This document shows positions 4,567 to 14,685 of a DNA stretch of 48,149 nucleotides, one piece after another. Positions within the stretch are counted from its first letter, which is position 1. The number at the start of each line of letters is the position of its first letter. Made by a program: the position numbers and the translations under genes. The stretch covers positions 1-48,149 of the forward strand of contig JAFYAC010000027.1 in NCBI GenBank assembly GCA_017540905.1, given 5' to 3'. Below the pieces are notes generated by a model. It searched no databases. It was not told the origin of the DNA and saw nothing but the letters and a program-made list of their open reading frames with translations. This DNA is from Kiritimatiellia bacterium. GTDB taxonomy: Bacteria > Verrucomicrobiota > Kiritimatiellia > CAIQIC01 > Lenti-01.

Positions 4567-5379
4567 TCAGCCGAGCCGGTCGAGGTCGCGGAGGACCAGG
4601 CCCATGTCGGGGTAGCGGTCGTCGGGGTTCTTGGCGATGCACTTCATGACGAGGTTCGCGAGGGCGACCGGGATGTCCGGGTTGAGCTGCCGGACGGGGG
4701 TGGGCGGGACCTTCGGATCGACCTGGTCGGCGCGGACCTTCTCGATCTTCTCGCCCTCGTACGGCTTGCGGAAGGTGAGCATTTCGTAGCAACAGATGCC
4801 GAACGCGTAGATGTCGGCGCGGTCGTCGGCGGTGTGGTTGAGGAGCGTCTCGGGCGGCACGTAGGAGGTGGTGCCGGGGATTTCCTTGATTTTCTTGAAG
4901 AAACGCTTGCGCGGGAGCGCGAGGTCGAAGTCGATCAGCACCAGCTGCCCGTTCGGCTGGACGAGGAGGTTCTCGGGCTTGATGTCGAGGTGGAGGTAGC
5001 CCTGCGCATGCACGTACTGGATGACGAGCGCCAGCTGCTTGATGAAGACCATGACGTTGTCGGTCAGCAGCGGCTCGCGGTAGAGGATGAGGTCGCGGAG
5101 GGTGCGCGATTCGACGTACTTGAGGACCATGTAGGGGATTTTTCCCTCGTAGCCCTGCTTGACGAACGGCACGATGTCGGGCCGCCCCTTCTGGATTTTG
5201 GCGAGGATTTCGCCGCCGCGGAAGAAGCGGGCGCGGGCCTTGCGGTCCTTGGCCGCCATCGCGTCGAGGACGCGTATGACATAGCGCTCCTGCTGGGCGT
5301 CGATCGCCACGTACAGCTTGGTCATTCCACCGCCCGAGATCGAGCGCGTGATCGAGTATCCTGCAAAGCTCTGGTTCAT
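4567..5379 (-). CDS. Atypical serine/threonine protein kinase (Hanks type, altered ATP-binding residues)
   Basis: A 270-residue protein that is only a kinase domain, without membrane segment or sensor domain. The glycine-rich loop is ISGGGMTKLYVA (residues 14-25). The VAIK lysine is replaced by arginine (YVIRVL, Arg36), and the helix-C glutamate position is Gly55 (FFRGGE), with Glu57 two residues on. The catalytic loop is HLDIKPEN (Asp132, Lys134, Asn137 kept), the DFG motif reads DFD (150-152) and APE reads PPE. The phosphotransfer residues are therefore mostly present while the Lys-Glu salt bridge is not. Start chosen at 5379 (MNQSFAGYSI), which gives a clean domain start; an upstream in-frame ATG at 5481 would run into padR. 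Divergent from padR, upstream of the L,D-transpeptidase. Confidence 0.85.
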   Translation of the reverse strand: MNQSFAGYSITRSISGGGMTKLYVAIDAQQERYVIRVLDAMAAKDRKARARFFRGGEILAKIQKGRPDIVPFVKQGYEGKIPYMVLKYVESRTLRDLILYREPLLTDNVMVFIKQLALVIQYVHAQGYLHLDIKPENLLVQPNGQLVLIDFDLALPRKRFFKKIKEIPGTTSYVPPETLLNHTADDRADIYAFGICCYEMLTFRKPYEGEKIEKVRADQVDPKVPPTPVRQLNPDIPVALANLVMKCIAKNPDDRYPDMGLVLRDLDRLG

Positions 5380-5456
5380 GCCGGGAGAGTACCCCAGTCG
5401 GGGGCGGTTTGGCAATGAAGAGTTTGGGCGGGAAAAAGGGCTTGACGGGAGGGGTG

Positions 5457-5477
5457 GTACTATGCGATGGGTAGTAC
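5457..5477. promoter_or_regulatory. Inverted repeat, probable operator between kinase and padR
   Basis: GTACTA (5457-5462) and TAGTAC (5472-5477) form a perfect 6+6 inverted repeat with 9 bp between, in the region separating the divergent kinase (start 5379) and padR (start 5505). PadR-type regulators generally bind dyads of this size and often repress their own gene. TTGACG at 5442-5447 could be a -35 for padR, but no well-spaced -10 follows. Assignment as the PadR site is inference. Confidence 0.45.
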
Positions 5478-5504
5478 GCAATGCAGAGTAGAGATGGCAA
5501 CGCG

Positions 5505-5873
5505 ATGATCGACGGGTGGATCGTCCAGCTGCGCAAGGGCGCGCTGGAGTACTGCCTGATGCTCGCGCTGAGGCGCGGGGAAAGCTACGGGTACGAAATC
5601 ATACAGGCGCTCTCGGAGGTCGAGGACCTCACGGTCGGGGAGAGCACGGTGTACCCCATCCTCGCTCGCCTCAAGGCGGAGGGGTTCCTCAAGGCGCGGC
5701 TCGGCAGGTCCGGCGCCGGGCCCATGCGCAGGTATTTTTCTTTGACCGAAAAGGGAAGGATCCGGTTGGCGATGATGGATGCCTACTGGCCGATGTTGTC
5801 GAAATCCATCGAAGCGTTGAAACGGGCCGCGTCGAAGGCAGGCGCGGCCGGAAAAGGGCAGGAGCAGACATGA
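5505..5873 (+). CDS. PadR family transcriptional regulator
   Basis: Small winged-helix DNA-binding protein of about 122 residues. The sequence WIVQLRKGALEYCLMLALRRGESYGYEI followed by GESTVYPILARLKAEGFLKAR and YFSLTEKGRIRLAMM is the classic PadR domain; the C-terminal helix for dimerisation is short (subfamily 2 style). I prefer the ATG at 5505 (MIDGWIVQLRKG), the usual N-terminus of the family; an ATG at 5481 is also in frame. Its stop overlaps the start of the A2M gene in ATGA, so the two are translationally coupled. PadR regulators are very often encoded just before a HAAS-domain membrane protein, and here that partner domain is fused to the A2M. An inverted repeat upstream could be its operator. 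Confidence 0.93.
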   Translation: MIDGWIVQLRKGALEYCLMLALRRGESYGYEIIQALSEVEDLTVGESTVYPILARLKAEGFLKARLGRSGAGPMRRYFSLTEKGRIRLAMMDAYWPMLSKSIEALKRAASKAGAAGKGQEQT

Positions 5874-8800
5874 ACAGGACGGATGCGGCGGACCGCTTGG
5901 CGGCGGGTTATCTTGAAGCGGTGGGCGCGGCGATGGCCGGTCGCCCGGAACAGGAGCGGCGCGACGTGCTCGCGCAGCTGGCGGAGCAGCTCGACGTGGC
6001 GGTGCGCGCCGCCGAGCCCGGTCCCGGGGAGTCGGAGGAGGAGGTGATGGGGCGCATCCTGGAGGGGATGGACCCGCCGGAGAATTTCGTGGTGGGCGCG
6101 GGGGCGATGGGGATTGGGGACGGCGGGGGGAATGGGGAGAATGGGGAAAATGGGGACGGTGGGGACGGTGGGGACTTTGGGGAGAGGGGAAGGGGTGGGG
6201 ACGGTGGTCGGCGGGGGCCGGGCGGGTGGTGGTGGTTCGCGCTGGCGGTGCTGTTCTTTGCGGTGAACGTGTGGGGGTTGTTCGGGGGAGGCGGCGGGGG
6301 GCGCGCCGGCGGGGAGGCGTCCGGGCCGGAGGAGGCGGAGCCGGAGGAGGTGGTGGAGGAACCGCCGCTGCCGGAGCCGGAGTACATGCGGGTGATGAAG
6401 CTGCGCAGGGTTTCGGTGATGGACAGCTCGGCGGACCGGACTGCGACGCTGCTGCTGACGTTCAGCGCGGAGCCGGACCGGTTGCAGCTGACGCGGCACT
6501 TCCGCCTGGAGGACGGGGACGGGGCCGCGGTGGGCTACCGCATCGAGGGGCTGCTGGGCCAGAACACGGTGGCGCTGGCGACGGACCCGGTGGCGACGGT
6601 AGGGCTGCGCTGGACGCTGGACGCGGGACTGGAGTCGTCGGAGCCCGGCGTGGTTCCGCTGGAGGAGGGGGAGCGGGGGATGCTGGAGATGGACCGTAAC
6701 CTGGAGGCGACGGAGGCGGAGGCGTACGCGAGGGCGTTCGAGGAGCCGTACGTGCGGATCCGCCTGACGGGTGCGCCGGAAGGGGAGCGGGAGAAGGTGG
6801 AGCCGTACGTGGAGGTGAAGCCGCCGGTGAAGTTCCGCGCGTCGGCGGGACGGGACTGGGAGGGGTGCTATTTGCAGCTGGAAGGGGCGTTCCGGCCAGA
6901 CAGTTTCTATGAAATCGCGCTCAAGGCGGGCCTGCCCGGCAGCGACGGGCGCCGGTCGCTCTCGCGCGATTTCCGCCGGACGCTGCAGATTCCGCGCCCG
7001 TCGGCGCGCGTGGAGCTGGAGAAGTCGGGCCGCTACCTGCCGCCCTCCGGTCCGCTCGCGGTGCCGGTGCGGACGTGCGGGGCGCGCTCGGTGTGCGCGC
7101 AGGCCTGGAAGGTCTATCCGGCCAACCTCGCCGACGCGGTGCTCTCGCGCGAAATGCGCTCGTGGAAGGTGATGGAGGACGAGTGGGGCGGGAAGTGGCA
7201 CACGCTGACGAACATTCCGGTGCGGCCGGACGTCCCGGGTCCCGGTGGCGCCGAGGCCGCGCCCGGCACGGGCCGCGCGCTGGTGCCGTTGCGCAAGCTG
7301 GCGGGGGAGGAGGAGCCGCGCGGGGCGTGGTGGGTCCGGGTGGAGCCGGAGGGCGACGGGTGGAGCGGCGACTCGCAGCTCGTCGTGGTGACGGACCTCG
7401 GCCTGAGCGTGCGCCTCGGCGTGCCCCCCGGGGAGCGCGGGGCCGGGATGGACGAGGACGGCAGCGCGCTGGTGTGGGTGAATTCGCTGCGCACGGCGAA
7501 GGCGGAGGAGGGGGTGCGCGTCGAGATCGTCTCGTCGCACCACCAGCTGCTGGCGTCAGGCACGACCGACGCCGACGGCATCGCGCGCCTGGAATGGACG
7601 GCGGGGGCGGACGGGGGGACCCCCGCGGTGGTCGTGGCCTCGAAGGACGGCGACCAGACGTACCTCGCGCTCGACCGGGCGCTGGCCGAGGGGGACGGCG
7701 GCGTGCGCGACTGGCCCGGCGAGGGGTTGCCGGAGGCGGAGTTCGCGGCGGGGCGCGGGGTGTACCGCCCCGGCGAGACGGCGTGCCTCGAGGCGTACGT
7801 GCGCGGCATCGACCTGGGCGTGCCGGAGCCGTTCCCGGCGGTGGCGGTGTTGCGCGCGCCGGACGGGCGCGTGGCGCTGGAGAAGGCCGTGGAGACGGGC
7901 GGGCTGGGGACGGTGGCGCTCGAACTGCCGATTCCCGGGGACGCGCCGACGGGCCGATGGGAACTGTCGCTGGAGACGCCGGGGGGGAGCGCGGTGCTGG
8001 GGAGGACGTCGTTCTCGGTGGAGGACTTCATGCCTCCTCAGATCCGCGTGGACGTGACGGGGCCGGAAGGCCGCCAGGCGGCCGCGGACGTGGAAAAGCT
8101 GAAGTTTGCGGTGAAGGCCGAGTACCTCTTCGGCGGCCCGGCGGCGCGGCTCCCGGCGGAGGGCGTGGTGTCGTGGAAGGCGGTGCCGTTCGCGCCGGCG
8201 GGCTGGCAGGGGTGGACGTTCGGGGACCCGCGCAAGAAGTTCGCCGAGTCGGACGCGCGCCTCGGGCAGTACCCGCTGGCGGCGGACGGTTCGCTCGCGT
8301 TCGTCGTGCCGGTGCGGCGCGAACCGGCCCCGCCGGCGGCGCTGCGCGCGGTGTTCGGCGCGACGGTGCGCACGGCGGGCGGCCGGGCGGTCTCGGACTT
8401 CGCGTCGGTGCTGGTCGATCCGTATCCGTTCTACGTGGGCCTGCGCCCGGCGTGGGAGGGCACGGTGCCCGTCGCCGCGACCCAGCGCGTGCAGGTCGCC
8501 GCGGTGGCCCCCGGCGGCGGCGCGCCGGACGCGGAGTCCACGCCCGCGCTGCTGCTCTCGCTGGTGAAGGTGGAATGGAACTCCTCGCTGCGCCGGAATT
8601 CCTCGGGCCGCTACGAATGGCGGAGCGAGCGCGAGGAGCACGTCGTGGAGCGCGCCACGAGGTCCCTCGGGCTCTCCGGCGACGGCCGCCTCGCCGCCGA
8701 CTGGGCGTTCGCCGTGCCGTCCCCCGGCGAGTGGGAAATCCTGGCCGAGGACCCGGAGTCGGGTTCCTCCACGCGCCTCTCCTTCCACGCCGGTTCGCGC

Positions 8801-11524
8801 GACTGGTGGTGGGACGAGGCGGCCCGCGCGAATCCCGCCGAGCTCCAGCTGGAGTGGGAGGGCGAGGGCCCGCGCAAGCCCGGCGACAAGGCGAAGCTGC
8901 TCGTCAAGTCGCCGTTCCCCGGCGAGGCGCTGCTGACCATCGAGACCACGCGCGTGCTGCTGGCGCGGCGCGTGGTCCTCGACGGCAACACCGCCGAGAT
9001 CGAGGTCGAGGTGGGGGAGGACTGGGCGCCCTCGGTGCGCGCCGCGCTCTCCGTGCTGCGCCCCGCCGCGCCCGGCGACACCGCGTGGATGGGCTACCGC
9101 GCGCACGGCACCGCCGCGCTGCAGGTGGACCGCCCCGAACGGCGCCTGGCCGTCGCCATCTCCGCGCCCGCCACCGTGCTGCCGCGCGCGCCGCTCGAAG
9201 TCGAGCTGGCCGTGTCCGGCCCCGACGGCGCGCCCGTGGCGGGCGGCGAGGTCACGCTCTTCGCGGTGGACGAGGCGATCTGCATGCTGACCGGGCACGA
9301 GACGCCCGACCCGCTGGCGCGCTTCAACGAAATCCGCCGCTCCCTCACGGACCTCCACGACCTCTACGCCGACATCATCGAGCCGGAGCCCGACGGCGCC
9401 GACGCCGTGTCGGCCCCCGGCGGCGACGCGGCGGGCGCCTTCCGCAAGCGCCTGAACCCCGTGCGCGCCAACCGCTACACGCCGCTCGCCTTCTGGCGTC
9501 CGGGCCTCGCGCTCGACAAAAACGGCCGCGCCCGCGCGACGGTCGAGCTGCCGGAGTTCGCCGGCGAGGTGCGCCTGATGGCGGTGGCGTGCACGGAAGG
9601 CGGGCTCGGGAGCGCGTCCGCGCCGGTCAAGGTTCACCGCGACCTGGTGGTGCAGCCGTCGCTGCCGCGCTTCCTGGCGCCGGGCGACCGGTGCACGCTG
9701 TCGGTGCCGGTGCACAACCTTTCCTCCAACGCGATGACGGTCGCCGTGCGCGTCGCGTGCGGCGGGCCGCTCGCGTGCGCCGAGGCTGGACGGACGGTGG
9801 AGCTCGACGCCGGCGCCGAGACGCTGCTGACCTTCCCGCTCGTGGCGGGCGACGCCTCGGGCAAGGCCGTATGCACGGTGGAGGCCGAGGCCGAGGGCGC
9901 GCCTTCCGAGCGCTACCACGAGACCTTCGAGCTGGCCGTGCGTCCGGCGGGCGGCCTCTCGCTGCGCACCGCATTCGGCGTGCTGCAGCCCGGCGAGAGC
10001 GCGGAGCTCCCGCCGCCCGAAGGGTTCGTCCCCGGCTCCGGCTCGCGCACGCTGCACGTCTCCGCGATGCCGTCGATCGACCTCTGCCGCGCCCTCCAGT
10101 ACGTCGCGTGGTACCCCTATGGCTGCCTGGAGCAGACCGTCTCCGGCGCCTACCCGCTGCTCCATTCCGAGGAGTGGGCCGAACGCCTCGCCCCCGGCGC
10201 CTGGGCCGCCGGCGACCCGCGCTCGCGCATCCGCGCCGCCATCTCGCGCGTCCTCTCCATGCAGACGCAGAACGGCGGCTTCGCCCTCTGGCCCTGGCTG
10301 CGCGACACCGACACCGAAAACAGCCTCTACGCCGTGCGCTTCCTCCTCGACGCGCGCGCCGCCGGCCACGACGTCCCCGAGTTTCCGCTCGAGCGCGCCC
10401 TCGACTGGGTCCGCCGCTGGGTCCTCGAAGACCGCCTGCCCGCCACCGCCGACACCTTCACCCCCGCCTGGCGCGGCGCCATGCGCCTGCGGGCCGAGGC
10501 CTGCCGCGTGCTGGCCGCCGCCGGGCGCGCCCCGTCCGGGTGGATCGACCGCCTGTGCGAGCGCACCGGCGACCTCGACTTCGCCGCCCGCGTCCACCTC
10601 GCCTGCGCCCTGCGCGAGGCGGGCGACCCGCGGCGCGCCGCCGACCTCCTCTCCTCGCTGCCCGTGCCCGTGCCGCGGCCGCGCCGGGGCGGCGACTGCC
10701 ACGACGGCGACGTACGCGAGGCCGCGATGCTCCTCGACGCCTGGGCCGAAACCGATCCCGAGTCGCGCGCCGCCGTGCAGCTCGCCGCCTACCTCCGCTC
10801 CCGCCGCGGCCCCGACGGCCACTGGGGCTGCACGCAGGACAACGCGCTCGCCCTCTGCGCCTTCGGCAAGCTCGCGCGCAACCTGCCGGCGGCCGAGCGG
10901 CCCGTGTCGTTCGAGTGCGCCTTCGGCGGCGCCGAACCCGCCGCGCGCTCCGGCGAACTCGACTGGGTGGGGAGCGGCGCCGACACCGACCCCGTGCGCC
11001 TCGCCAACACCGGCGGCGCCCCGCTCTACTACGTCCTGCAGGACACAGGCGTCGACCTCGAGCCCCCCGCCCTCTGCGCCGACGGCATCGCCGTAGACCG
11101 CGAATTCTTCGACTGGGAAGGCAATCCCGTGGACCCCTCCGAGCTCAAGCAGGGCGACCTCCTCATCGTGCGCACCACCATCCGGAAGCTCCGCGACGGC
11201 GACCTCTCCAACCTCGCCGCCGAGGACCTCCTGCCGGCCGGCTGGGAAATCGAGAACCTTGCCTTCAAGACCAGCACCTCCGGCGGCACCTGGCTGCAGA
11301 CCGTCATGAAGTCCGACAACTGCTGGACTGACGCGCGCGACGACCGCATGCTCCTCTTCCCGTCCGGCTTCGGCCGCGAAGGCCGCGCCCGGGCCCACTA
11401 CGCCGTCCGCGCCGTCTCCCCCGGCGAATTCATCCTCCCCTCCGTCACCGCCAGCGGCATGTACGACCCCGGCGTCCGCGCCGTCGGCCCCGCCCCCCGC
11501 ACCGTGCGCGTCACCGCGCCGTGA
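5870..11524 (+). CDS. HAAS domain-transmembrane-alpha-2-macroglobulin fusion protein
   Basis: A 1,884-residue protein, longer than the roughly 1,650 residues of E. coli ECAM. Residues about 8-72 match the HAAS/DUF1700 pattern of PadR partners (YLEAVGAAMAGRPEQERRDV, a helical repeat, ending EVMGRILEGMDPPENF). A Gly/Asn/Asp linker (78-117, built from a repeated TGGGGA-type DNA word) leads to one membrane helix at about 118-138. The rest is periplasmic: macroglobulin-like beta domains, the A2M signature FAVDEAICMLTGHETPDPLARF region near residues 1130-1150, and a helical thioester domain with GCLEQ, Cys1419 to Gln1422. That CLEQ is the motif used by E. coli ECAM to trap proteases covalently. Starts in the ATGA overlap with padR. 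In other bacteria A2M genes are next to pbpC, which follows here after an inserted cassette. A role as a protease trap is family knowledge; signalling through HAAS to PadR is inference. Confidence 0.92.
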   Translation: MNRTDAADRLAAGYLEAVGAAMAGRPEQERRDVLAQLAEQLDVAVRAAEPGPGESEEEVMGRILEGMDPPENFVVGAGAMGIGDGGGNGENGENGDGGDGGDFGERGRGGDGGRRGPGGWWWFALAVLFFAVNVWGLFGGGGGGRAGGEASGPEEAEPEEVVEEPPLPEPEYMRVMKLRRVSVMDSSADRTATLLLTFSAEPDRLQLTRHFRLEDGDGAAVGYRIEGLLGQNTVALATDPVATVGLRWTLDAGLESSEPGVVPLEEGERGMLEMDRNLEATEAEAYARAFEEPYVRIRLTGAPEGEREKVEPYVEVKPPVKFRASAGRDWEGCYLQLEGAFRPDSFYEIALKAGLPGSDGRRSLSRDFRRTLQIPRPSARVELEKSGRYLPPSGPLAVPVRTCGARSVCAQAWKVYPANLADAVLSREMRSWKVMEDEWGGKWHTLTNIPVRPDVPGPGGAEAAPGTGRALVPLRKLAGEEEPRGAWWVRVEPEGDGWSGDSQLVVVTDLGLSVRLGVPPGERGAGMDEDGSALVWVNSLRTAKAEEGVRVEIVSSHHQLLASGTTDADGIARLEWTAGADGGTPAVVVASKDGDQTYLALDRALAEGDGGVRDWPGEGLPEAEFAAGRGVYRPGETACLEAYVRGIDLGVPEPFPAVAVLRAPDGRVALEKAVETGGLGTVALELPIPGDAPTGRWELSLETPGGSAVLGRTSFSVEDFMPPQIRVDVTGPEGRQAAADVEKLKFAVKAEYLFGGPAARLPAEGVVSWKAVPFAPAGWQGWTFGDPRKKFAESDARLGQYPLAADGSLAFVVPVRREPAPPAALRAVFGATVRTAGGRAVSDFASVLVDPYPFYVGLRPAWEGTVPVAATQRVQVAAVAPGGGAPDAESTPALLLSLVKVEWNSSLRRNSSGRYEWRSEREEHVVERATRSLGLSGDGRLAADWAFAVPSPGEWEILAEDPESGSSTRLSFHAGSRDWWWDEAARANPAELQLEWEGEGPRKPGDKAKLLVKSPFPGEALLTIETTRVLLARRVVLDGNTAEIEVEVGEDWAPSVRAALSVLRPAAPGDTAWMGYRAHGTAALQVDRPERRLAVAISAPATVLPRAPLEVELAVSGPDGAPVAGGEVTLFAVDEAICMLTGHETPDPLARFNEIRRSLTDLHDLYADIIEPEPDGADAVSAPGGDAAGAFRKRLNPVRANRYTPLAFWRPGLALDKNGRARATVELPEFAGEVRLMAVACTEGGLGSASAPVKVHRDLVVQPSLPRFLAPGDRCTLSVPVHNLSSNAMTVAVRVACGGPLACAEAGRTVELDAGAETLLTFPLVAGDASGKAVCTVEAEAEGAPSERYHETFELAVRPAGGLSLRTAFGVLQPGESAELPPPEGFVPGSGSRTLHVSAMPSIDLCRALQYVAWYPYGCLEQTVSGAYPLLHSEEWAERLAPGAWAAGDPRSRIRAAISRVLSMQTQNGGFALWPWLRDTDTENSLYAVRFLLDARAAGHDVPEFPLERALDWVRRWVLEDRLPATADTFTPAWRGAMRLRAEACRVLAAAGRAPSGWIDRLCERTGDLDFAARVHLACALREAGDPRRAADLLSSLPVPVPRPRRGGDCHDGDVREAAMLLDAWAETDPESRAAVQLAAYLRSRRGPDGHWGCTQDNALALCAFGKLARNLPAAERPVSFECAFGGAEPAARSGELDWVGSGADTDPVRLANTGGAPLYYVLQDTGVDLEPPALCADGIAVDREFFDWEGNPVDPSELKQGDLLIVRTTIRKLRDGDLSNLAAEDLLPAGWEIENLAFKTSTSGGTWLQTVMKSDNCWTDARDDRMLLFPSGFGREGRARAHYAVRAVSPGEFILPSVTASGMYDPGVRAVGPAPRTVRVTAP

Positions 11525-11528
11525 ACGT

Positions 11529-11741
11529 GCGACGGCAACCCGCAATACTCCCCCCTGTCGGCTGCGCCGACATCCCCCCTATCGGAGGGGGGACGGACGC
11601 CGTTGCCGGCGTCCGGGGAAAACCTGTTTTGAATCCACGCCCTTTTTGGAACATGCCAGGAGTGCACCTTCTCCATTCCCCCCCTCCGAGAGGGGGGGGG
11701 CGCGGAGCGCCGGGGGGAGTACTGCGCGTTGCCGTCGTCCC
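11529..11741 (+). repeat. ~212-bp palindromic repeat element, copy 1
   Basis: Begins GCGACGGCAACCCGCAATAC and ends with the near-exact inverse of that end (TACTGCGCGTTGCCGTCGTC), giving terminal inverted repeats of about 25 bp with two mismatches. Inside are further small hairpins: TGTCGGC/GCCGACA, GACGCCG/CGGCGTC and CCCCTCCGAGAGGGG. It starts 5 bp after the A2M stop. Copy 2 (12212-12423) is in the same orientation and nearly identical; degraded relatives lie at 44.8-45.1 kb. It looks like a MITE or large REP-type element. Confidence 0.85.
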
Positions 11742-11789
11742 CCACTTTTATTCTTGCAGAAATCCCCCCTCCTCCCCACTCTCCCTTCC

Positions 11790-12194
11790 ATGTCCCCGCA
11801 CCACCCCGATTTTCTCCACTACCGCCCCGACCTGGTGGAACGCGCCCGCGAGCTGCGCCGCAGGGAAAACCAAACTCCGGAAGAGCGCCGATTGTGGAAC
11901 GCCTGGCTGCGGAAGTCCCCCGTTCGCTTCCAGCGCCAGAAGCCCATCGGCGACTACATCGCGGACTTCTATTGCCACGCGGCGCGCTTGGTGGTCGAGG
12001 TGGACGGCTGGCGCCATTTCAGCGAAGAGGGGGAATCTTATGACGCACGCCGCACGGCCTACCTTGAATCCTTGGGCCTGCGGGTGGTGCGCTTCCGCGG
12101 GGAAGCCGTCCGCGACAACGTCGATGGCGTGGGGCGCTGGCTCGTTGTCCTGGCCGAAGAACGGGCGCGGGAAGTGGGCCGTCCCGCGCCGTGA
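11790..12194 (+). CDS. DUF559 (Vsr-like fold) endonuclease domain protein
   Basis: A 134-residue protein. ARELRRRENQTPEERRLWNAWL, then FQRQKPIGDYIADFYCHA, VVEVDGWRH and the C-terminal LGLRVVRFRGEAV are the hallmarks of the DUF559 family, a PD-(D/E)xK-like nuclease fold related to very-short-patch repair endonucleases. The acidic and basic residues of that core (Asp in YIADF, Glu-Val-Asp in VVEVDG) are present, so it may be active. The start at 11790 has only a pyrimidine-rich leader and no Shine-Dalgarno. The gene lies exactly between two direct copies of the 212-bp repeat, within an otherwise conserved A2M-pbpC pair. Substrate and role are unknown; moving or protecting the repeats is a guess. 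Confidence 0.85.
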   Translation: MSPHHPDFLHYRPDLVERARELRRRENQTPEERRLWNAWLRKSPVRFQRQKPIGDYIADFYCHAARLVVEVDGWRHFSEEGESYDARRTAYLESLGLRVVRFRGEAVRDNVDGVGRWLVVLAEERAREVGRPAP

Positions 12195-12211
12195 CCGCGT
12201 GGCGGCTTGTA

Positions 12212-12423
12212 GCGACGGCCACCCGCAATACTCCCCCCTGTCGGCTGCGCCGACATCCCCCCTCTCGGAGGGGGGACCGGACGCCGTTCCCGGCGTCCGG
12301 GAAAAACCTGCTTTGAATCCACCTCCTCTCTGGAACGTGCCAGGAGTGCACCTTCCCATTCCCCCCTCCGAGAGGGGGGTGGCGCGGAGCGCCGGGGGAA
12401 GTACTGCGCGTTGCCGTCGTCCC
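12212..12423 (+). repeat. ~212-bp palindromic repeat element, copy 2
   Basis: Same ends, inner hairpins and orientation as copy 1, with scattered substitutions (for example GCCACCCGCAATACTCC at the left end). It starts 17 bp after the DUF559 stop and ends 48 bp before pbpC. The two copies and the gene form a unit of about 895 bp. Confidence 0.85.
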
Positions 12424-12471: not shown

Positions 12472-14685
12472 ATGTCCCCACCGCCTAAAATCCGCCCCCT
12501 CTTCCGCCGCCTCGTGCTCCTCGTCGCCGCCGCCGCGCTCCTCTGGGGCGGGTGGCGCGCGGCGCTGCGCTTCGTGCCGTTCCCGGGCGGGCGGCTGGCG
12601 GCGGTGCCCTCCAGCGTCCTCCTCACCGACCGCGAAGGCGCGCCCATCCGCCTGCGCCTCGCGCCGGGCGGGATCGACGCGCGCCCCGGCTACGTCCCCG
12701 CGCGCACCGACTGGATCGCGCAGGCCATCGTCGCGGCCGAGGACAAGCGCTTCTGGTCGCACGGCGGCCTCGACTTCCTCTCCCTGCTGCGCGCCGCGGG
12801 CCAGAACGCCTCCAGCCTGCGGCGCATCTCCGGCGCCTCCACCCTCTCCACCCAGGTCGTGCGCCTGGCCGTGCCGCGTCCGCGCACCCTGCGCACCAAG
12901 CTGCTGGAGGCGTTCCAGGCCTTCCAGCTCGAGCGCCGCATGGACAAGGCGGCCATCCTCCGCCAGTACCTCGACCGCGCGCCCTTCGGCGGCAACATCG
13001 TCGGGGCCGAAGCCGCCGCCTGGCGCTACTTCGGCAAAACCGCCCGCGACCTCTCCCTCGCCGAAGCCGCCCTCCTCGCCGGCCTCCCCCAATCCCCCTC
13101 GCGGCTGCGTCCCGACCGCCACCCCGCGGCCGCCGCGCGACGCCGTTCCTACGTCCTCTCCCGCATGGAAGCCTGCGGCATGATCACTCCCGCCGAGCGC
13201 GCCGCCGCCGATGCCGCGCCCGTCGCCCTCACCCCGGCGGCGTACCCCTTCCGCGCCCCGCACTTCTGCGACGCCGTGGGCGTCCCCGTGCGCCCGCGCG
13301 CCGACGACTGCCGCGTCCGCACCACCCTCGACCCCGTCATCCAGGCGTGGGCCGAGGACGCCCTCGCGCGCCGTTGCGCGGCCCTCGGCGTGGCGGGCGG
13401 CGCCGTCGTCGTCCTCGACGCCCCGACCGGGGCCGTGCGCGCCATGGTCGGCTCCCCCGACTACGCCTCGCCGCGCGCCGGGCAGGTCAACGGCGCCCTC
13501 TCCGCGCGCGCCGCCGGGTCCACCTTGAAACCCTTCGCCTACGCCCTCGCCCTCGACCAGGGACGCCTCGCGCCCGCCGACCTCCTGCCCGACGCCCCCG
13601 TCCACTACCGCGACCTCGTCCCCCTCAACTTCACCCGCGACTTCCGCGGGACCGTGCCCGCGCGCGACGCCCTCGTCCTCTCCCTCAACCTGCCGGCCAT
13701 CGAAGTCGAGCGCCGCGCCGGGCAGCCCGCCTTCCACGCCCTCTTGCGGCGGCTCGGACTCTCCACCATCGGCCCCGAGCCCGCCCGCTACGGCCTCGGC
13801 CTCGTCCTGGGCAACGCCGAAGTCCGGCTCCTCGACCTCGCCAACGCCTACGCCTGCCTCGCCCGCGGCGGCCGCTTCCTCCCGCCGCGCACCGTCGAAG
13901 ACGCCCCCGCGCCCGACCCCGCCGCCGCGCCCTCCCTCCTCACCCCCGAAGCCGCGTGGATCGTCTCCGACATCCTTTCCGGCGACGAACGCGCCTTCGA
14001 CGCCACCGGCCACGCCGCCGACGTCCCCCTCCCGCGCTTCGCGTGGAAGACCGGCACCTCTGCCGGACTCCGCGACGCCTGGACCGTCGCCTGGAACCCC
14101 GACTTCGTTATCGGCGTCTGGATTGGCGACCCCTCCGGCGCGCCCTCCGCCAGCCTCGTCGGCCGCCTTGCCGCCACCCCGGTCGCCTGGGACCTGATCC
14201 GCCGCCTCTATCCCCGCAACCGCCCCGCCCCGTGGTATCCGCGCCCCGCGGGCGTCGTCTCCCGCACCGTCTGCGCCGACACCGGATGCGTCGCCACCCC
14301 CGCCTGCCCGAGGACCCATCCCGACTGGGCCATCGCCCAAGTCACCCGCCGCGAAATGTGCCCCTCCCGCCACGCCGCCCCCTCCGCGCCGCCCCCCGCC
14401 TCCCCGACGGCCAACCCCGTCCGCATCGTCACCCCTCCCGACGGCGCCACCTACCGCCTTCTCCCCGGCGTCCTTCCGGCGGTTTCCCAGAAACTCCCCC
14501 TTGTCGCGGCCGCCGACACCCTTCCGCCCGGCACCCCCCTCCACTGGTTCCTCGACGGCCGCCCCCTCGGCTCCTCCCGTCCCGGCGAACCCTTTTTCTG
14601 GCCCATGGCCCGCGGCCGCCACACCCTCTCCTGCGCCGCCCCCGGCCACCTCCACCCCCCAACGGCCACCTTCACCGTCGAGTGA
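12472..14685 (+). CDS. pbpC: Penicillin-binding protein 1C (bifunctional glycosyltransferase/transpeptidase)
   Basis: Class A PBP of 737 residues. Membrane anchor at about 10-34. The GT51 glycosyltransferase has the catalytic glutamate in AAEDKRFWSHGG (Glu90) and later QYLDRAPFGGNIVGAEAAA. The transpeptidase domain has SxxK at Ser350 (AGSTLKPF), SLN in VLSLNLPA, and KTGTS at Lys526. The last ~90 residues after PVRIVTPPDGATY form the BiPBP_C domain that distinguishes PBP1C. In E. coli pbpC is directly behind the A2M gene yfhM and the pair is thought to respond to wall breach by host proteases; the order A2M-pbpC is kept here except for the repeat-DUF559-repeat insertion. The leader is CTCCTCCC with no Shine-Dalgarno. 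Confidence 0.95.
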   Translation: MSPPPKIRPLFRRLVLLVAAAALLWGGWRAALRFVPFPGGRLAAVPSSVLLTDREGAPIRLRLAPGGIDARPGYVPARTDWIAQAIVAAEDKRFWSHGGLDFLSLLRAAGQNASSLRRISGASTLSTQVVRLAVPRPRTLRTKLLEAFQAFQLERRMDKAAILRQYLDRAPFGGNIVGAEAAAWRYFGKTARDLSLAEAALLAGLPQSPSRLRPDRHPAAAARRRSYVLSRMEACGMITPAERAAADAAPVALTPAAYPFRAPHFCDAVGVPVRPRADDCRVRTTLDPVIQAWAEDALARRCAALGVAGGAVVVLDAPTGAVRAMVGSPDYASPRAGQVNGALSARAAGSTLKPFAYALALDQGRLAPADLLPDAPVHYRDLVPLNFTRDFRGTVPARDALVLSLNLPAIEVERRAGQPAFHALLRRLGLSTIGPEPARYGLGLVLGNAEVRLLDLANAYACLARGGRFLPPRTVEDAPAPDPAAAPSLLTPEAAWIVSDILSGDERAFDATGHAADVPLPRFAWKTGTSAGLRDAWTVAWNPDFVIGVWIGDPSGAPSASLVGRLAATPVAWDLIRRLYPRNRPAPWYPRPAGVVSRTVCADTGCVATPACPRTHPDWAIAQVTRREMCPSRHAAPSAPPPASPTANPVRIVTPPDGATYRLLPGVLPAVSQKLPLVAAADTLPPGTPLHWFLDGRPLGSSRPGEPFFWPMARGRHTLSCAAPGHLHPPTATFTVE

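Follow-up and report, generated by a model that had tools for sequence, protein, structure and literature searches.

A PadR regulator and a HAAS-bearing alpha-2-macroglobulin form a candidate self-contained circuit in a Kiritimatiellia bacterium

Ravi et al. (2024, PMC11237479) put HAAS–PadR systems forward as an alternative to two-component systems. The HAAS partners named in the text of that study are PspC, LiaI-LiaF, Toastrack, VanZ, FtsX/MacB, FtsW/RodA, pentapeptide repeats, and uncharacterised multi-TM domains; its main text never uses the word "macroglobulin". The PadR protein LltR of Listeria represses its own operon (lmo0599-0601), in which the HAAS-type domain DUF1700 belongs to a multi-spanning membrane protein and DUF4097 is carried by a separate exoprotein; the available text on this operon makes no mention of macroglobulin (PMC6624303). 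Type-I alpha-2-macroglobulins (A2Ms) such as E. coli YfhM/ECAM and Salmonella A2M have a CXEQ thioester, a bait-region domain, lock tyrosines, and an RDDR motif, and pbpC is often the next gene (PMC4498604, PMC5764988). Cleavage of the bait causes a global rearrangement of A2M, a change in which RDDR takes part, and A2M and PbpC are regarded as a pair for envelope defence and repair (PMC4498604). The HAAS–PadR system as such has been known since 2024, and a variant with A2M as its putative receptor appears to be new; neither an A2M–HAAS fusion nor a bacterial A2M combined with PadR was found among the papers listed in searches of the open PMC library.

In the 48,149-nt stretch of Kiritimatiellia DNA that was analysed (the window), a stand-alone padR gene precedes a gene whose product joins HAAS to a predicted transmembrane helix and an A2M. 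The locus resembles the described HAAS–PadR systems, which have HAAS on a membrane protein and a stand-alone padR gene alongside, and differs from them in its predicted sensor, a single-pass periplasmic trap of about 1,750 residues (PMC11237479). It shares with the Listeria operon the presence of a HAAS-type membrane protein in the operon of padR (PMC6624303). The genes of the locus are:

5505..5873, + strand: padR, encoding a 122-residue PadR-family winged-helix regulator, with the start selected from relatives
5870..11524, + strand: HAAS-TM-A2M fusion of 1,884 residues (ATG at 5870, stop at 11524), assigned from Pfam matches and fused homologues
12472..14685, + strand: pbpC-like gene for penicillin-binding protein 1C (Transgly, Transpeptidase, and BiPBP_C domains), the classical partner of A2M

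The PadR protein matches PF03551 with 66.3 bits (E 2.4e-18, Pfam cut-off 27), resembles TIGR03433 (padR_acidobact) below the cut-off of that model, and is the sole PadR match within the genome, a draft of 178 contigs that is 84% complete. The open reading frame listing begins padR at ATG 5481. We prefer the start at 5505, because position 5481 falls within a conserved operator and the reading frame of relatives starts at the equivalent of ATG 5505. The original prediction had placed the start at the same position and had the A2M start overlapping the padR stop, which is borne out by an ATGA overlap at 5870-5873. The A2M and pbpC genes are separated by 947 nt, which hold a repeat-flanked DUF559 gene. 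In the other two genomes of the window's genus (L122 and L123), no penicillin-binding protein match follows A2M within 2.8 and 3.5 kb.

The fusion protein can be divided into HAAS, linker, membrane helix, and trap:

5882..6097, + strand: HAAS domain, residues 5-76, presumed cytoplasmic, from PF22564 and predicted helices
6227..6286, + strand: membrane helix, residues 120-139, from the AlphaFold2 prediction, presumably an uncleaved signal anchor
9365..9484, + strand: bait segment, approximately residues 1166-1205, with borders inferred from the alignment to Salmonella A2M (4u48)
10124..10135, + strand: CLEQ thioester, residues 1419-1422, with lock tyrosines 1415 and 1417 just before it
11336..11347, + strand: RDDR motif, residues 1823-1826, present in 13/13 aligned proteins

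The reading frame is free of internal stops, and its bMG3, MG2, bMG5, bMG6, bait-region, A2M, and bMG10 domains each exceed their Pfam cut-offs (PF07703, PF00207, and PF17973 among them). The trap matches the structure of Salmonella A2M (4u48, E 8.6e-101). The cysteine, glutamate, and glutamine of the thioester and both lock tyrosines are identical in all 13 aligned proteins, in agreement with the intact CLEQ site at Cys1419-Gln1422 that had been predicted. Among the lock elements, YxY before CXEQ, RDDR, and the MY of EXMY are present in 13/13; the glutamate of EXMY is retained in four of the proteins and is S, T, or V in the others, with S in the window protein. The bait segment is a variable acidic and glycine-containing stretch in the alignment. 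Judged by its sequence, the A2M is equipped like a working type-I trap, with the thioester, the bait domain, and most of the lock residues. It differs from the lipoprotein YfhM in its predicted signal-anchor helix, and from both the E. coli and Salmonella proteins in the HAAS domain before the anchor and the dedicated padR gene in front (PMC4498604, PMC5764988).

The first approximately 76 residues of the protein form a predicted HAAS domain. The HAAS-like N-terminus that had been proposed scores against PF22564 with 21.6 bits (E 2.9e-4) when residues 1-80 are used and with 15.6 bits when the whole protein is used, the curated cut-off being 27; all 20 homologous N-termini match the profile at E up to 1, the best at 2.9e-11. 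Six relatives were tested singly: four exceed the cut-off with 34-37 bits, a fifth reaches 19.1, and the sixth has no match at E up to 0.01; the fusions of four named genomes reach 32-43 bits. The structure prediction that had been suggested as a check gives HAAS-type helices at residues 5-21, 27-47, and 56-66, followed by a break and a helix at 70-73, with pLDDT of 81-93 over ten-residue blocks of residues 1-70 and an overall pTM of only 0.48. The model corresponds to the three-helix HAAS fold with a kinked third helix. Residues L15, L37, P70, and E71 are invariant across the 20 proteins, whose identity is as low as 20%. At the kink, the GxP motif of described HAAS domains (PMC11237479) is replaced by D/E-x-P: the proline is P70 in 20/20, and the glycine position is occupied by D in 19 and E in one. 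D-x-P proteins nonetheless exceed the Pfam cut-off. Another HAAS protein of the phylum (locus L127) has, as judged by eye, GPP at a similar place.

Residues 92-116 form a Gly/Asp-rich linker between the HAAS domain and the membrane helix, in which W122, L125, and N133 are invariant or nearly so. The pLDDT of the linker is under 50 and it is probably disordered in the predicted structure, so rigid transfer of a signal from the trap to HAAS is doubtful, and a tethered or proteolytic mechanism may suit it better. The positive-inside rule applied across 20 proteins was not decisive for topology. The placement of HAAS in the cytoplasm and of the trap in the periplasm is based on the link to PadR and the type of A2M.

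The fusion and its association with padR recur widely within the phylum, as a survey of A2Ms for N-terminal HAAS and padR revealed. padR is located upstream in all 31 genomes with a readable fusion N-terminus and upstream DNA. It was present in 20/20 HAAS-A2M loci of a first survey, in 20/20 fused loci L107-L126 (13 of them from genomes already in the first survey), and in two further HAAS-A2M cases from another class; besides L107-L126, locus L074 has padR and HAAS in a separate frame. The 30 best-matching N-terminal loci (L033-L062) include 29 with padR, and the exception (L054) is cut off by the end of its contig. Two genomes (G005 and G076) have an interrupted or incomplete fused A2M frame. 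Conversely, among 35 loci of the same class whose A2M lacks HAAS, none has padR; 29 of these loci have at least 1 kb of upstream sequence. The A2M tree requires at least four changes in the presence of HAAS, three of which are forced by well-supported branches, and padR follows HAAS at each of them; the independent contrasts number only three (sign test p 0.25).

HAAS was identified in nine of the best 80 of 576 named A2M loci, the titles of which name Kiritimatiellae, Verrucomicrobia, Lentisphaerae, Spartobacteria, or PVC group bacteria. When the N-termini of 60 other A2Ms were scanned against Pfam, HAAS was not among the 25 of 32 families listed. The Thermoanaerobaculia record L195 belongs to a phylum that we take to be Acidobacteriota, where the HAAS family is similarly present in 25/149 genomes. 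It differs in that none of the 32 HAAS matches in these 149 genomes is in a frame longer than 984 residues, so that none is long enough for a full A2M fusion. Elsewhere in the phylum of the window, padR-HAAS loci have HAAS on other membrane proteins, which suggests that HAAS with a sensor is a reused module.

A conserved palindrome is located in front of padR:

5442..5447, + strand: putative -35 hexamer TTGACG, 8 nt before the operator
5456..5492, no strand assigned: putative operator and presumed PadR site, a 37-bp palindrome in which 1 bp separates two TAC-N10-GTA dyads
5458-5473 and 5475-5490: the dyads of the putative operator, TAC-N10-GTA each

The canonical operator of several PadR proteins is ATGT-N8-10-ACAT (PMC3506622); the dyads of the window are of similar length, whereas their letters differ and the dyad occurs twice. 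The putative operator is the best site within approximately 120 nt upstream of padR in 24/24 loci, although in one of them (L114) the site is weak and only its left half can be made out. In the window the operator has a leave-one-out score of 47.2, compared with -5.0 for the best other site on the window's + strand and a best of 3.1 in 40 Markov copies. The highest score outside HAAS loci, 29.2, comes from a low-complexity run in the HAAS-less locus L072 (from the same genome as L134), and other named non-HAAS A2M loci score 14.6 or less. TTGAC is found 13-21 nt ahead of the operator start in 17/24 loci, and a consensus promoter scan gave no sigma-70 match in the padR promoter region.

Separately, Pho-box-like sites are present upstream of two HAAS-less A2Ms (13/14 in L105 and 12/14 in L073). 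A few more of the 28 HAAS-less loci have such sites above shuffles; most do not.

With up to three mismatches allowed, the palindrome occurs at a single site in the window's genome (84% complete) and exactly once in 15 of 18 family genomes; the reversed-pattern control had no sites in the 18 genomes. The same pattern search gave no second site for a wider PadR regulon. Because of this single occurrence per genome, the regulon appears, on sequence grounds, to be limited to the padR-A2M operon. None of the three outcomes named as refuting the original prediction occurred: residues 1-80 do score against the HAAS profile, the window shows no frameshift, and the fusion recurs widely in the phylum. 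The prediction is partly supported, in that HAAS is fused to an intact A2M and linked to padR, whereas a sensor for protease attack or wall breach is a proposal. That HAAS and padR come and go together, and that the palindrome is conserved and unique in the genome, makes the PadR–HAAS–A2M link stronger than the original prediction knew. With no second site in the 84% complete genome, the data favour a PadR that controls the A2M operon itself over one that receives a general report.

We slightly favour a self-contained PadR–HAAS circuit whose product, the protease trap, is also its receptor. From established knowledge of the components, PadR would bind the palindrome as a dimer and keep the operon repressed; with only one membrane helix, the fusion would expose HAAS to the cytoplasm and its trap to the periplasm; and HAAS would serve as the docking surface for PadR. 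A protease entering the periplasm would cleave the bait, and A2M would collapse around it and be spent. The change may travel along the MG domains and, by way of the anchor, reach HAAS, which would alter its hold on PadR and derepress the operon, so that spent traps are replaced, with PBP1C where it is co-transcribed. HAAS, once activated, may capture PadR; alternatively, intact HAAS-A2M may act as a co-repressor that cleavage removes. We infer both protease capture as the signal and the direction of signalling.

The operon could instead control dose without sensing, with HAAS on A2M titrating or assisting PadR to keep the amount of membrane A2M constant, and proteases mattering only by consuming A2M. 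Such control would fit the finding of one operator per genome, located at the operon's own promoter, the overlap of the padR and A2M genes, and the low-confidence linker, which speaks against fine conformational signalling. We nevertheless regard it as unlikely, as various membrane or exported domains, including those of PMC11237479, are joined to HAAS beside padR, which suggests input from the fused domain. It is less probable still that envelope or membrane stress is sensed by the anchor or HAAS itself and A2M is a mere output. PadR–HAAS systems have been tied to membrane stress (PMC11237479), and the defence-and-repair view of A2M–PbpC (PMC4498604) fits this explanation, but a separate HAAS protein would suffice for an output-only A2M, whereas HAAS is fused in 31/31 padR-HAAS-A2M genomes read and is in a separate frame in one further genome (G077). 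Small PadR proteins such as LmrR directly bind drugs (PMC5428041), so PadR might be a plain autorepressor with a small-molecule ligand and HAAS a non-signalling N-terminal extension; the joint presence or absence of HAAS and padR at several points and the four invariant HAAS residues make this improbable. The window's HAAS score under the Pfam cut-off and the 178-contig draft could be taken as signs of a chance helix bundle or of a frameshift or assembly join, but the same architecture in 31 genomes rules out the join and, with relatives' HAAS over the cut-off, leaves an artefact a negligible chance.

With the self-contained circuit, the HAAS–PadR system would come to include a receptor that crosses the membrane once and has a very large periplasmic domain. 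In the fullest form of the circuit, to which we give somewhat less than an even chance, the trap would be a complement-like receptor, in which covalent protease capture is reported through the HAAS tail to a PadR that targets only the trap's own operon; such signalling would be kinase-free, with effector, sensor, and regulated product in one protein. The mechanism of A2M is well studied in enterobacterial relatives, and a circuit made up of only two proteins and a single DNA site is tractable for studying how bacterial A2Ms are induced. The locus also allows one to ask whether the cell notices a fired trap. It lends itself naturally to testing signalling from HAAS to PadR, since HAAS and padR are found or missing together and there is one operator per genome.

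The padR and A2M genes of the window share an ATGA, which bears out the original prediction that the start of the A2M gene overlaps the padR stop. The source genome is a 3.5-Mb draft of 178 contigs that is 84% complete; the window is one of its contigs, and the genome contains one A2M match and one PadR match. The features of the region are:

4567-5379, minus strand, Ser/Thr protein kinase gene (PF00069, E 2.3e-34)
5456-5492, 37-bp palindrome before padR, the presumed PadR binding site (operator)
5505-5873, padR, 122 codons
5870-11524, A2M gene, 1,884 codons
11790-12194, DUF559 gene (PF04480, E 2.7e-27)

The A2M protein is composed of bMG3, MG2, bMG5, bMG6, a bait-region domain, A2M, and bMG10, and its residues 535-1878 align to the structure of Salmonella A2M (PDB: 4u48) with an E-value of 8.6e-101. 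The CXEQ motif, the two tyrosines preceding it, RDDR, and MY are kept in 13 of 13 aligned A2M proteins. The first residue of the published EXMY motif is glutamate in only four of the 13, and serine in the window. Because of this domain set, the alignment to 4u48, and the kept motifs, the protein looks, from its sequence, like a working type-I trap, and the prediction of an intact thioester-containing A2M holds.

The N-terminus of the protein had been proposed to be a HAAS domain. Residues 1-80 reach 21.6 bits against the HAAS profile PF22564, the cut-off of which is 27, and therefore the window protein by itself leaves the identity of the domain unsettled. All of the 20 homologous N-termini, though, match PF22564 at E up to 1, the best at 2.9e-11. 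Of six N-termini tested singly, four are above the cut-off, one reaches 19.1 bits, and the sixth is not matched at E up to 0.01. Among the named genomes searched, the HAAS part passes the cut-off in the four with the fusion, and the six with HAAS-less A2Ms contain no HAAS match at E up to 0.001. The structure predicted by AlphaFold2 (mean pLDDT 70.6, pTM 0.48) shows the three helices expected of HAAS, broken at D-P-P (residues 68-70); residues 120-139 form a membrane helix apart from these, and the linker has a pLDDT under 50. All 20 N-termini have aspartate or glutamate in place of the glycine of the HAAS GxP motif (PMC11237479); the proline is invariant. The N-terminal domain is best described as a divergent HAAS domain.

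The window A2M (query P0001) is matched in 35 of the 57 genomes in the set of relatives, its own among them, and, at E up to 1e-20, in 150 of the 346 class genomes. A profile of the N-terminus (A1) matches 61 of the 346, in some cases over the membrane helix alone. N-termini and upstream DNA were inspected at 20 loci, at 56 further fetched loci, partly from the same genomes, at two loci from another class of the phylum, and at the best 30 A1 loci. Both the recurrence of the fusion and its predicted link to padR are borne out: padR is located upstream in all 31 genomes with a HAAS-A2M fusion and readable upstream DNA, versus none of 35 HAAS-less loci among the further fetched set, 29 of which have at least 1 kb of upstream DNA (less in L072, L075, L076, L080, L088, and L106). 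Merged per genome, the 31 comprise 20 genomes from the first 20 loci, seven more from the further fetched loci, two from the other class, and, from the best A1 loci, G015 and G024, the A2Ms of which run off the contig end. The A2M of G005 has an in-frame stop, and that of G076 stops early, with its C-terminal part on a separate contig. Among the best 30 A1 loci, the sole one without padR, L054, starts at a contig end. G077, with padR and HAAS frames apart from A2M, was tallied separately.

In most fusion genomes padR and the A2M gene are directly adjacent or overlap. The distance is about 65 nt in G004 and about 305-610 nt, with no long open frame of its own, in G018, G022, and G026. At loci L016, L017, and L019, from three genomes of genus g8, the gap of about 305-610 nt is rich in short repeats (e.g. 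TGTAGGCCCGGTCACCTGACCGGGCGC), and the pair is still kept. The inspected HAAS-less A2Ms mostly start with 5-30 residues followed by a membrane helix, and thus HAAS was either acquired by a pre-existing anchor at its cytoplasmic end or lost there. The A2M tree contains at least four changes of HAAS label, three of them forced by starred branches, and padR tracks HAAS at every one. Since only three HAAS/padR pairs are independent (sign test p 0.25), the weight rests on this consistency rather than on the test.

A site of consensus GCTACTATGTATTACGTAGTACGTAATGCGGAGTAGC is present upstream of padR in 24 of 24 loci examined. It is a palindrome of two TAC-N10-GTA dyads spaced by one base; TAY-N10-RTA is intact in the left dyad of 21 and the right dyad of 22 loci. 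The dyads are alike in length to the ATGT-N8-10-ACAT dyads reported for PadR proteins (PMC3506622), but differ in letters. Leave-one-out scores range from 17.3 (L114, with a degenerate right half) to 56.4, and the window site scores 47.2, compared with -5.0 for the best other plus-strand position in the window and at most 3.1 in 40 Markov copies. Among the HAAS-less loci scanned, only L072 exceeds 12, within a low-complexity run. With up to three mismatches allowed, 5458-5490 is the one occurrence of the pattern in the source genome, and 15 of 18 family genomes have exactly one each, directly before padR wherever inspected; the reversed control pattern has no site in the 18. G003, G006, and G017, which have no site, either show no A2M match or have an A2M cut by a contig end, and in G012 and G013 the site and most of the A2M are on different contigs. 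In 17 of 24 loci, a TTGAC is found 13-21 nt ahead of the operator. This spacing would put the operator across the -10 region and the start of transcription, where a repressor would sit; a strict promoter scan of the window gave no match. The kinase gene is divergent from padR and shares the 125-nt intergenic region with the operator.

A PBP1C-like gene, the classical A2M partner, follows A2M in 14 of the 20 HAAS loci L107-L126. The distance is 42-296 nt in ten of the 14; two have it at 0.9-1.0 kb and another two at 2.1-2.3 kb. It is absent within 2.8-3.5 kb after A2M in L109, L122, and L123, the latter two from the genus of the window; L112, L116, and L120, where none is shown, have less than 0.5 kb of DNA there. 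The 947-nt A2M-pbpC gap of the window contains the DUF559 gene, which is flanked within 11529-12423 by direct repeats (66, 116, and 70 nt; 82-97% identical). This stretch resembles an insertion and may uncouple the pair, and therefore co-transcription of A2M and pbpC in the window is uncertain.

In Listeria, the PadR proteins LftR, LltR, and LstR act as repressors of their own genes (PMC6624303), HAAS has been proposed to convey a signal of membrane or extracellular origin to PadR (PMC11237479; PMC12419801), and bait cleavage triggers a global rearrangement of bacterial A2M that traps the protease (PMC4498604). Mapped onto the anatomy described here, these properties would form a closed circuit with the trap outside, HAAS inside, the repressor alongside, and one operator in front. 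The best-fitting signal would be firing or consumption of the trap, upon which PadR might be captured or, alternatively, a co-repressor lost. The weakest link of the circuit is the linker that separates HAAS from the membrane helix, which is probably disordered according to the model and would therefore favour tethering, clustering, or cleavage over a rigid lever.

Pho-box-like sequences CTGTCATAATTCTGTCAC and CTGTCACAATCCTGTCAC precede the HAAS-less A2Ms of L105 and L073, in the place of padR and the operator in HAAS loci. Such sites are weak or absent in most remaining HAAS-less loci, and a regulator swap is possible from these sequences.

HAAS-PadR systems were reported in 2024 (PMC11237479); in the open PMC literature that we searched, no HAAS-A2M fusion, single-pass protease-trap receptor, or single-target operator came up. 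Among other padR-HAAS loci of the phylum, L128 and L129 have a sequence resembling the operator's left half (TATACTGYTTTRCRTAGTA) right before padR, with weak full-site scores of -3.1 and 13.0, a hint in the sequence of an operator grammar shared across paralogous PadR-HAAS systems. L127 (genome G316) contains two tandem padR-HAAS pairs, the second HAAS-like protein of which scores 21.6 bits, below the cut-off, and has a VIT domain. In L130 (genome G338), the gene after padR encodes a HAAS protein in which a hydrophobic stretch is combined with WD40-like repeats and a Big_5 domain; it is a candidate further HAAS receptor. Since these proteins carry a VIT domain or WD40-like repeats with Big_5, HAAS joined to diverse membrane or exported domains seems to recur more widely in the phylum.
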